From Candidatus Magnetocorallium paracelense (lineage in GTDB: Bacteria; Nitrospirota; Thermodesulfovibrionia; Thermodesulfovibrionales; Magnetobacteriaceae), in NCBI GenBank assembly GCA_029001845.1, contig JAREWP010000037.1:1-54269 (forward strand): DNA of 54,269 nucleotides. The letters are read 5' to 3'. A program made the translations under genes and the position numbers. This document shows, piece after piece, positions 24,809 through 50,532 of this stretch. A model generated the notes under the pieces. The model was given only the letters and a program-made list of their open reading frames with translations, searched no databases and was not told the DNA's origin. The first letter of the stretch is position 1. Each line of letters starts with the position of its first letter.

Positions 24809-25441
24809 ATGCTTGGCGACGTATTGTTAATAGAAGAAAAACATGAAAAAGCTGCAAAAGTTATTCTGCAAAGAGTTTTAAAAGAGAAAAAGGACAAATA
24901 CATGATAGCAATATCGGGCGAATCAGGTTCAGGAAAATCGGAACTGGCCCATGTGTTGGCCAAAGAGCTTAAAAAAGTTGGTATTCGTGCAAAACCAATC
25001 CATATAGACAATTATTACAAAATTTCTCCTCTTGAAAGAACTGAATGGCGGAAAACCCAAGGTTTTGATAAAATCGGTTTCAACGAATACGACTGGGAAA
25101 CAATTTATAAGAACATCGAAGAGTTTAAAACCGGCGGAAAAGCGACCATGCCATGCATCGACATTGTAACGGATCAAGTTGACACGTTGATTACTGATTT
25201 TTCAGAAGTTCAGATGCTCATAATCGACGGTTTGTATGCCGTAAAAACGGATGGTGTTGACTTAAGAGTGTTTATAGAATTGACATATCATGATACCAAA
25301 AAGGCCCAAATTTTAAGGGGTAAAGAACCTCAAAACGAATACAGGCTAAAAGTTCTGGAAAGAGAGCATGAAAACGTTCAATCCCTTAAACCTACAGCCC
25401 ATATGTTTATAAACAAAGACTATATGGCTGTTGACGCTTAG
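24809..25441 (+). CDS. Uridine kinase-like P-loop protein
   Basis: The 210-residue protein has Walker A GESGSGKS (37-44), then PIHIDNYYK, the substrate-side Asp motif of the uridine kinase/phosphoribulokinase family, and MPCIDIVTDQVDTL, with LIIDGLYAV as Walker B. It would phosphorylate uridine, cytidine or a related small molecule in the cytoplasm. AGGGGG at 24798-24803 is the ribosome binding site. The TAG stop spans the first base of the palindromic element at 25438-25620, so the C-terminus may have been set by that insertion, although 210 residues is a normal length. There are no pyrimidine genes nearby. Confidence 0.8.
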   Translation: MLGDVLLIEEKHEKAAKVILQRVLKEKKDKYMIAISGESGSGKSELAHVLAKELKKVGIRAKPIHIDNYYKISPLERTEWRKTQGFDKIGFNEYDWETIYKNIEEFKTGGKATMPCIDIVTDQVDTLITDFSEVQMLIIDGLYAVKTDGVDLRVFIELTYHDTKKAQILRGKEPQNEYRLKVLEREHENVQSLKPTAHMFINKDYMAVDA

Positions 25442-25620
25442 GGCTTATCAGGAAATAACTTTAAAATTTTACATCCCGTATTCAGCTCATCTTCAATTGA
25501 TTTTCAATCGCAAGATCCTCGAAATAGTGCTACTATGCCTGCGATTTTACTCAATCAAATCAATTGAATCTAAACTAACCCGGGCACTATATGCCAAAGT
25601 TATTTTCTGACAAGCCCTTA
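25438..25620. repeat. MITE-like element with GGGCTTrTCAG ends
   Basis: TTAGGGCTTATCAGGAAATA at the left and, inverted, TTAAGGGCTTGTCAGAAAAT at the right are terminal inverted repeats that extend through ATAACTTT. The 180-bp unit contains no open frame; the centre (TTCAATTGATTTTCAATCGC and the inverted ATCAATTGAA) is also palindromic. The element supplies the last base of the stop codon of the gene before it. Confidence 0.8.
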
Positions 25621-33402: not shown

Positions 33403-33527
33403 CCTCTCCCCTTGAGGGGAGAGGACTAAGGTGAGGGGTGACGGTGCAGAAGCGTTACCCTATCGAGTACCTTACCGCACCCCCTCACCCCAACCCTCTC
33501 CCCCTTCAAAGGGGTAGAGGGAGTAAA
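33403..33527. repeat. Intergenic palindrome rich in CTCTCCCC/GGGGAGAG
   Basis: CTCTCCCCTTGAGGGGAGAG at about 33404-33423 is a near-perfect local palindrome. The outer GGTGAGGGGTG and CACCCCCTCACC, with CCCTCTCCCCCTTC, form a larger inverted repeat. A fragment of the same type (GCGAGGGGTGACGGTG) appears at 37206-37221. The part of the gap before it (33102-33402) shows no gene. Confidence 0.7.
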
Positions 33528-47905: not shown

Positions 47906-48404
47906 CTAATCACTACATAACTCATCAATCAATTTTTTACGTAAAGTGTCCACCTGGTTTATCAAAGATTCGGAGAGCTTTAAAGAGTCCTCTGCATCAT
48001 ACTCGTCTATGGATTCAAAGTCACCATAATCAACATCAGTTCTCCTTGAGAGGAGGAGTTTAAAATCCTTCACTATCTTAGTAGGGAGAATACCAGATTT
48101 AATAAATCTGAGGCTTACCATTGTTATGACGTCGTCATGAGTTTCAGGATTTACACCTTGAAGAATCAAGAGTGACCTTATCGCATTAAGGGTTGACTCA
48201 AAAATAAATTCGCATTTTTATTTTTGAGTCAACCCTAAGAGCCGCATAATAACTCCTGTTAACAGACGTCTTAAACCTGAATTCTTTAAAATTACTGCGA
48301 GCGTCTTTCAAAAACTCAAGAGCCTTTTCCATCCTGATATGGCTGAGACTCTTTTTATCTTTTGGTTCTAATTGAAGTGGTCTTGACAAACCCGTCCACT
48401 TCAC
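47906..48404 (-). pseudogene. HEPN-domain gene split by a 46-bp palindrome
   Basis: The 5' part (start GTG 48404 or ATG 48332) reads MEKALEFLKDARSNF and SVNRSYYAAL, the start of a HEPN helical domain. The 3' part resumes as NAIRSLLILQGVNPETHDDV and ends at 47906 (LIDELCSD). Between them lies a 46-bp perfect palindrome at 48190-48235 that brings an in-frame stop. Removing the element and one TTA copy joins AAL and NAIRS in frame and gives a complete domain of about 140 residues. HEPN proteins often act as toxin RNases beside nucleotidyltransferase antitoxins, but none is adjacent. The 5' end overlaps the P-type ATPase stop. Confidence 0.88.
48190..48235. mobile_element. 46-bp perfect palindromic insertion with TAA target duplication
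   Basis: GGGTTGACTCAAAAATAAA and its exact 19-bp complement enclose the 8-base loop TTCGCATT. The element is flanked on both sides by TAA (48187-48189 and 48236-48238) on the + strand. Deleting the element with one TAA restores the HEPN reading frame. It carries no gene and must have been moved by an enzyme encoded elsewhere. It could alternatively form as a DNA or RNA hairpin. Confidence 0.85.
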
Positions 48405-50532
48405 ATGGACGTTTATCCTCTATTTCTATCGGTTCATCCTTTTGATATTTTACCAAAGGCCATAGAGTATTAGAGACTCCGACAACGGTCCCCAGATAAT
48501 ATAATACCATTCCCGTTAAAAGACCGAAGTTAAATAGATAAACTCCTCCTATGCAGATTACACCCGGAACGATCGTGGCCTTAAAATTGGTGCTCATTGT
48601 ATTTTCAAATTGATCCACAAGTTCGAAAAGCTGTTTCAGATGGTTCAGACTTCCATCCATCAGAACGATTTGAGCAGTATCGACAGCCACAGTGGAAGCA
48701 CCTTTAAGGGAGATAGAAACTTGAGCCGATTTGAGGGCAATTGCATCATTTATACCGTCACCGATAAAGCAGACAAATCGACCTTCCTTCGATAGTCCTT
48801 TAACCAAATCGGCTTTATTTTCAGGTAAAACTTCTGCAAAATAATTGTCTATTCCCAGAGCTTCAGCCATACAACGAGTGGGTTCTTCATGGTCACCTGA
48901 AACTATATAAAGTTTTATATTTCGTTGCTTCAGGTATTGAATAATTTCAGCCGCTTCAGGACGGATAGTCGGATGTATTTCGAAGATACCTTTCAATTGG
49001 TTATTAATGCTTATATAAATCAACGAAAACCCTTCAGACTCTGCTTTATTCTGAATATCCATGGTAATTTCCGGTAATTCAATTCCTTCACGAGACATAA
49101 AACGGGCGCTACCAATGAAAATCCGGTCTCCATTAATTCTGACTTTAATACCATAACCTACTTCATAGTCGGCTTCATCCAAATCAGGTAAATTTATATC
49201 TTTACTCTCCGATTTATCTACAATCGCCCTGGCTATCGGGTGCGTGTGACGATATTCAGCAGCCGCAGCATAGCCTAACAGGGTATCTTCATCATAATCT
49301 GCAATACAATGAATTTGGGTGACTTCGGGTTGTTCCATAGTCAAAGTACCTGTTTTATCAAAGACAACGGTATCGACTTGACGTATTGATTCCAATACCC
49401 TTCCATCTTTAATCAAAATTCCGTTGCGAGAGAGAATTTGCAGATAGCTGAGTACTGTGAGCGGGCCTAATGAGATCATATTCGCACCGAGGGCGGACCA
49501 CATGACAGTCAGTGCAGGTCCTGATCCCTTTAATATCCACGTTGTTCCTGTAATACCTAATTCAAATGGCACAAACTTATCTGCAATTTCCTGTCCGCGA
49601 ATAACAAGCGTATCTTTATAGTTTTGAGCATTTTCGAGTACTTTGGCAATTTTAGCTGCAACAGTTTCTTCTCCTGCTGTTTCCACACAGATATGAATAC
49701 TACCTGACAACATCAATGTAGCCGCAAACACCTTGTCGCCGGTTGCTTTCTCCACCGGCTGACTTTCACCGGTAAGAATATGCTGATCGATGGTAGCATC
49801 TCCTTTCTTAATGCTACCATCTACAGGGATGATTTCTCCTGTGTTAACAACTACAACATCCCCTGGCTGTATTGCGGTAATATCGACTTCAATTTCTACA
49901 CCATCTTTTTCGAGCCACGCCTTTGGCGGATGATTGCCAAAAACACTTACCAGTTGCTTTTTAGAGTGATCTTCGGTTTTATTGATAATTTTAACAAAAA
50001 ATCTGCCTACCAGCCCCCCCACGGCAGCCAGGATTAAATGACCATCTACAATCATGCCTACTATCAGAATTCCGTTTATCATAAATAAGCTGAAAAAACG
50101 TTTAGATTTAATATCACGCCAAATAAATTTATAAAGATCTCGGGCCAAATACATGATCATTGTTACACTTAATATTGAAAATAGAGGTGATATACTGCCC
50201 AATAAAGCTGTTGTAACCGCTCCGGCAGAAAGAATAATGTTTTGATTAACATTTTCCTGTTCTTTTCGCATCCCCGTGCTTAAGTCTGCAGATTTCGTTA
50301 ACTGCTGTCGTTCATCGTCGCTTACAACACTCTTTACATCTTTAAAAAGTTTTGTTAAGCTAAAATTTTTTTTGCCTGCACTGTTCTCTAAATATAGGGT
50401 TTCACTGCTATTCGATCGGGTGTTAACACTGTCGGATTGTTCGGATGTTTTGACAGACAGTTGATCTTTGTTACGCTTTCTCATAAAAAATGTAGCCCCG
50501 GCAATACCGATTAAAGTAAGTTCAATTAACAT
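48355..50532 (-). CDS. P1B-like heavy-metal P-type ATPase without CPC motif
   Basis: The 725-residue transporter has the full catalytic core: TGES (about 253), phosphorylated D392 in DKTGTLT, the P1B-specific HP signature (RHTHP) and GDGIND. Where P1B pumps carry CPC or a variant in the sixth membrane helix, this protein reads MISLGPLTVLSYL (about 349-361), with no Cys at all. There is also no N-terminal heavy-metal domain; instead, a single membrane helix and a charged low-complexity stretch lead in. The transported ion is therefore unclear. The last 50 bp overlap the broken HEPN gene. Nothing is seen in 50533-50677 upstream. Confidence 0.85.
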   Translation of the reverse strand: MLIELTLIGIAGATFFMRKRNKDQLSVKTSEQSDSVNTRSNSSETLYLENSAGKKNFSLTKLFKDVKSVVSDDERQQLTKSADLSTGMRKEQENVNQNIILSAGAVTTALLGSISPLFSILSVTMIMYLARDLYKFIWRDIKSKRFFSLFMINGILIVGMIVDGHLILAAVGGLVGRFFVKIINKTEDHSKKQLVSVFGNHPPKAWLEKDGVEIEVDITAIQPGDVVVVNTGEIIPVDGSIKKGDATIDQHILTGESQPVEKATGDKVFAATLMLSGSIHICVETAGEETVAAKIAKVLENAQNYKDTLVIRGQEIADKFVPFELGITGTTWILKGSGPALTVMWSALGANMISLGPLTVLSYLQILSRNGILIKDGRVLESIRQVDTVVFDKTGTLTMEQPEVTQIHCIADYDEDTLLGYAAAAEYRHTHPIARAIVDKSESKDINLPDLDEADYEVGYGIKVRINGDRIFIGSARFMSREGIELPEITMDIQNKAESEGFSLIYISINNQLKGIFEIHPTIRPEAAEIIQYLKQRNIKLYIVSGDHEEPTRCMAEALGIDNYFAEVLPENKADLVKGLSKEGRFVCFIGDGINDAIALKSAQVSISLKGASTVAVDTAQIVLMDGSLNHLKQLFELVDQFENTMSTNFKATIVPGVICIGGVYLFNFGLLTGMVLYYLGTVVGVSNTLWPLVKYQKDEPIEIEDKRPCEVDGFVKTTSIRTKR

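Follow-up and report, generated by a model that had tools for sequence, protein, structure and literature searches.

Palindromes of the REP type or derived from IS200/IS605 are short hairpins that are not known to carry target duplications or to lie between two long terminal repeats. Prokaryotic MITEs, among them RUP, Correia and ERIC, are non-autonomous, palindromic and dispersed, with terminal repeats and target duplications. A 2024 review gives their size range as 50–500 bp (PMC10969869). Insertion sequences of the ISAzo13 family (PF07592, DDE_Tnp_ISAZ013), about 1.3–1.9 kb in length, encode a transposase, end in GGG...CAAAAATAA and are flanked by duplicated TTA or TAA. Their target duplications have been described as 3 bp long (PMC10045372).

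The window analysed here is the whole 54,269-nucleotide stretch of contig JAREWP010000037.1 from Candidatus Magnetocorallium paracelense. It contains a 46-bp hairpin that resembles REP palindromes in being short, but has a duplication and DDE-type ends of its own. It shares the listed features of prokaryotic MITEs, although it lies just below their size range and is probably a deletion product. Its ends and its 3-bp duplication are those of ISAzo13 elements, whereas it has no transposase and is far smaller. The hairpin is a relic of an ordinary MITE, not a new kind of mobile element.

The hairpin and the interrupted HEPN gene

The features at the site are as follows.

47906–48186, minus strand: C-terminal part of a HEPN gene, PF05168 positions 38–114
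48187–48189, no strand: left copy of the target duplication, TAA (sequence read, homologue comparison)
48190–48235, no strand: 46-bp hairpin; 48190–48216 are the first 27 nt of a MITE and 48217–48235 its last 19 nt, with 133 bp absent between them
48190–48208: left arm of the hairpin, GGGTTGACTCAAAAATAAA, 19 nt
48209–48216: loop between the arms, TTCGCATT, 8 nt
48217–48235: right arm of the hairpin, TTTATTTTTGAGTCAACCC, 19 nt
48236–48238, no strand: right copy of the target duplication, TAA (sequence read, homologue comparison)
48239–48386, minus strand: N-terminal part of the HEPN gene, Pfam HEPN positions 5–35; homology reaches about 48386

The sequence agrees with the first-pass annotation of a 46-bp element with exact 19-bp arms, an 8-base loop and TAA at both ends. 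The arms are 100% complementary, and 20 nt each when the flanking A/T is counted. The term "perfect palindrome" used in that annotation holds for the arms but not for the element as a whole, an inverted repeat whose arms are separated by a loop and not a gapless palindrome. Folding energy was well below that of shuffled sequences (z = −9), and no shuffle was equally good. An Rfam scan of the window gave no match.

The two gene halves divide the Pfam HEPN model (PF05168) between them, at model positions 5–35 and 38–114, and start codon candidates occur at 48332 (ATG), 48389 (TTG) and 48404 (GTG). Reading from the N-terminal half, a stop codon is reached within the insert, 12 codons past the junction. 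The halves entered the alignment and searches as two separate fragments, with the flanks kept unjoined. In the alignment with 19 HEPN homologues from the same order they abut without a gap, and in these homologues the YYA-x-L motif runs directly into the next helix, with no insert. The insert is likewise absent from a frameshifted paralogue of the HEPN gene in this genome (C9:126377–126732). Since all 19 homologues are uninterrupted at this site, the window has a net gain of 49 bp, made up of the 46-bp hairpin and 3 bp of duplicated target. The focal TAA/TAA, together with homologues that continue exactly in frame, is the 3-bp duplication expected of an ISAzo13-derived element. A DNA-level empty site was not found among 60 relatives, none of the same genus; because the best DNA match was only 70% identical, the empty site is established at the protein level. 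These data bear out the earlier proposals that a HEPN gene had been split with a 3-bp duplication, with both target and product readable.

The closest HEPN homologue (L061, G023:C4, 983–1761) lies directly behind a nucleotidyltransferase-like (MNT-like) gene, unlike the window gene, which follows a P-type ATPase (48355–50532).

The 179-bp parent and its superfamily

The genome was searched for the hairpin arm, as the first-pass annotation had suggested. With as many as three mismatches allowed, its 6.0 Mb gave 33 matches, against none for the reversed control pattern. Most of these were the paired ends of a 179-bp MITE, present in nine full copies 98–100% identical to the query copy. The MITE has the ends GGGYTGACTCAAAAATAA with TWA flanks, and in the nine copies these ends are inverted repeats of each other over 18 nt with 0–1 mismatch. 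With its near-identical copies, diverged subfamilies, terminal inverted repeats and target duplication, it has the characteristics of a prokaryotic MITE. Folded along its full length, the element forms a long, imperfect hairpin (z = −13).

In six of the nine copies, the MITE prefix of 27 nt and suffix of 19 nt make up the 46-bp hairpin exactly, without overlap. The hairpin is therefore an internally deleted copy of this MITE, with 133 bp removed. The deletion junction contains no microhomology and so shows no sign of simple slippage between direct repeats. The short form occurs only in the window: a pattern scan of the genome (GGG...AAAATA ends, 4–34 base gap) found no second hairpin of this kind. 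The first-pass annotation had let its reading depend on a second copy existing somewhere; the arm proved abundant, whereas the 46-bp form is single. Its view of the hairpin as non-autonomous mobile-element sequence with a 3-bp duplication was upheld, but the hairpin is a remnant of the 179-bp MITE and not a separate family.

Single arms at C9:120518, C90:97439, C24:27420 and C15:59593 were considered as ends of full insertion sequences and rejected, as they had no partner end and no adjoining transposase.

The genome contains further elements of about 180 bp that share the core of the 179-bp MITE but differ in their ends (GGGTCTGCGCAAAAATAA, GGGTCAGGTCAGAAATAA, GGGACTCGAAAATTAC). A common core with differing ends indicates that the MITEs form a superfamily. 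One full-length relative from another subfamily lies in the window itself:

25441–25617, no strand: MITE relative of 177 bp, ends GGGCTTATCAGGAAATAA and GGGCTTGTCAGAAAATAA, TTA on both sides

In the subfamilies represented by L110–L128 and L180–L190, a shared palindromic core is found with different ends, as though the middle had stayed constant while the ends were swapped.

Across all subfamilies, the two flanking triplets were identical in 20 of 29 TWA-flanked (TTA or TAA) copies. The other nine (L001, L010, L016, L019, L114, L119, L123, L125 and L127) had mixed flanks, TTA/TAA or TAA/TTA, as did one ISAzo13 element (L101, TAA/TTA). Mixed flanks may come from duplications that vary in length (2 or 4 bp) or from some other process. 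Some of the nine copies can be read just as well with a 2-bp TA or a 4-bp TTAA duplication. Transfer of donor flanks was considered and set aside. Shortened forms are also found elsewhere. In MAG S10.Bin075, 159-bp elements are accompanied by forms of 77 bp and 66 bp, the two flanks of each being identical (TTA or TAA), and the Magnetocorallium genome contains truncated fragments of another MITE subfamily.

ISAzo13 elements with matching ends

The 18-nt MITE end was scanned across 85,000 species genomes, and 31 DNA stretches matched. In two of the 31, an extended ISAzo13-family transposase (PF07592) adjoins the end: L095, from a Moorella MAG (E = 2.3e-111), and L101, from the Deltaproteobacteria MAG M_MetaBat.211 (E = 1.6e-112). 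Both were found by searching with that end, so agreement over their first 18 nt is built into the search; independent of it are the transposase, 9 further nt and, in L101, the far end. L101 is a complete element of 1,927 bp, and one of its ends, GGGCTGACTCAAAAATAACTTTACATT, is the same 27 nt as in the Magnetocorallium MITE at C81:27425; L095 shares this end. Its far end was found independently. The MITE thus has ends in common with autonomous elements, in other genomes. Fragments of the ISAzo13 family also occurred in L104 and L087. The extended MITE end had no match in viral contigs.

ISAzo13 elements of the same phylum were selected by their transposase rather than their ends, the PF07592 profile being matched in 19 of 198 phylum genomes. 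Their tips were GGG or GGC overall. L134 has the end GGCCTCACGCAAAAATAA with inner CAAAAATAA and TTA/TTA flanks, while GGG tips were found in L135, flanked by TTA/TTA, and in L157, flanked by TAA/TAA.

These matches suggest that an ISAzo13-type transposase probably moved the 179-bp MITE, and that the element works like an ISAzo13 MITE. The ISAzo13 transposases would then be candidate movers of a superfamily that numbers dozens of copies here. In the literature searched, no paper was found linking a MITE to ISAzo13. The earlier suggestion of a transposase of wholly unknown type finds no support in these ends, which match DDE insertion sequences of the ISAzo13 family. Involvement of IS200/IS605 or REP-type enzymes was likewise not supported, given the 3-bp duplication at the HEPN site and the ISAzo13-type DDE ends. 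The insertion sequence with matching ends that the first-pass annotation had looked to was found in other bacteria (L095, L101) but not in the same genome. Neither the PF07592 profile nor a protein search detected an ISAzo13 transposase in the 103-contig draft assembly; the cognate enzyme may have been lost, or may lie within a gap of the assembly.

Origin of the 46-bp form

In the proposed mechanism, a DDE transposase of the ISAzo13 family, acting in trans, would bind the GGGTTGACTCAAAAATAA ends of the MITE and insert it at a TAA of the HEPN gene, generating the 3-bp duplication. The full MITE forms a long end-to-end hairpin, and palindromes of this kind are prone to losing their central part when they are replicated. 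Loss of 133 bp from the inserted copy would leave a terminal repeat at either end and 8 nt in between. We consider it quite probable that an ISAzo13-type MITE entered the HEPN gene in this way and that its palindromic middle was deleted later. The deletion most likely came after rather than before insertion, a timing that rests on the single 46-bp copy.

The main rival differs in this order of events: the deletion would have occurred elsewhere, and the 46-bp form, acting as a minimal transposon, would then have inserted itself into the HEPN gene. The arms are perfect, the tips intact and the TAA duplication clean, all of which fits such a history. It is retained because the short forms of S10.Bin075, with clean duplications at 66 and 77 bp, leave room for movement. 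However, the scan found no other such hairpin in the genome, and a duplex of 46 bp would give a transposase scant room to pair two 19-bp ends. We regard this order as unlikely. Had the 46-bp form moved itself, it would be about the smallest known DNA transposon, consisting of two 19-bp ends with a spacer of 8 bp. The locus presents a MITE of which just the ends remain, and its target, its product and its parent can all be read. It also cautions that a minimal palindrome, however striking, can be the deletion relic of a common repeat.

Two further explanations concern the enzyme and the nature of the hairpin. The mover could come from a different DDE family with 3-bp TNA duplications, whether IS5-type (IS1031/ISL2) or PIF/Harbinger-like. 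IS5-type groups also produce short, T/A-rich target duplications, and the genome carries a few PF01609 transposases. Duplications in the Harbinger/ISL2/IS5 group are 0–4 bp long (PMC10045372). Neither the MITE ends nor TWA-adjacent GGG tips were present at any of the five PF01609 loci, however, so these transposases were rejected as movers, while matching ends do occur on ISAzo13 elements; another DDE family is accordingly improbable. Least probable by far, and barely credible, is that the hairpin belongs to the locus natively, as a terminator or another regulatory structure. The fold is strong, and terminator-looking GGGTTGACTC...GAGTCAACC hairpins of similar appearance occur in Bacillus-type contigs (L080, L089, L097). 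Against this stand the position inside a reading frame, the homologues without a hairpin, the target duplication, and the identity with the ends of a dispersed repeat.

Other repeats were also observed in the window. An 88-bp imperfect hairpin at 33416–33503, rich in CCCTCACC/GGTGAGGG, resembles another dispersed repeat, and near the contig end, at 61–147, there is an inverted repeat made of tandem ATTGACG units.
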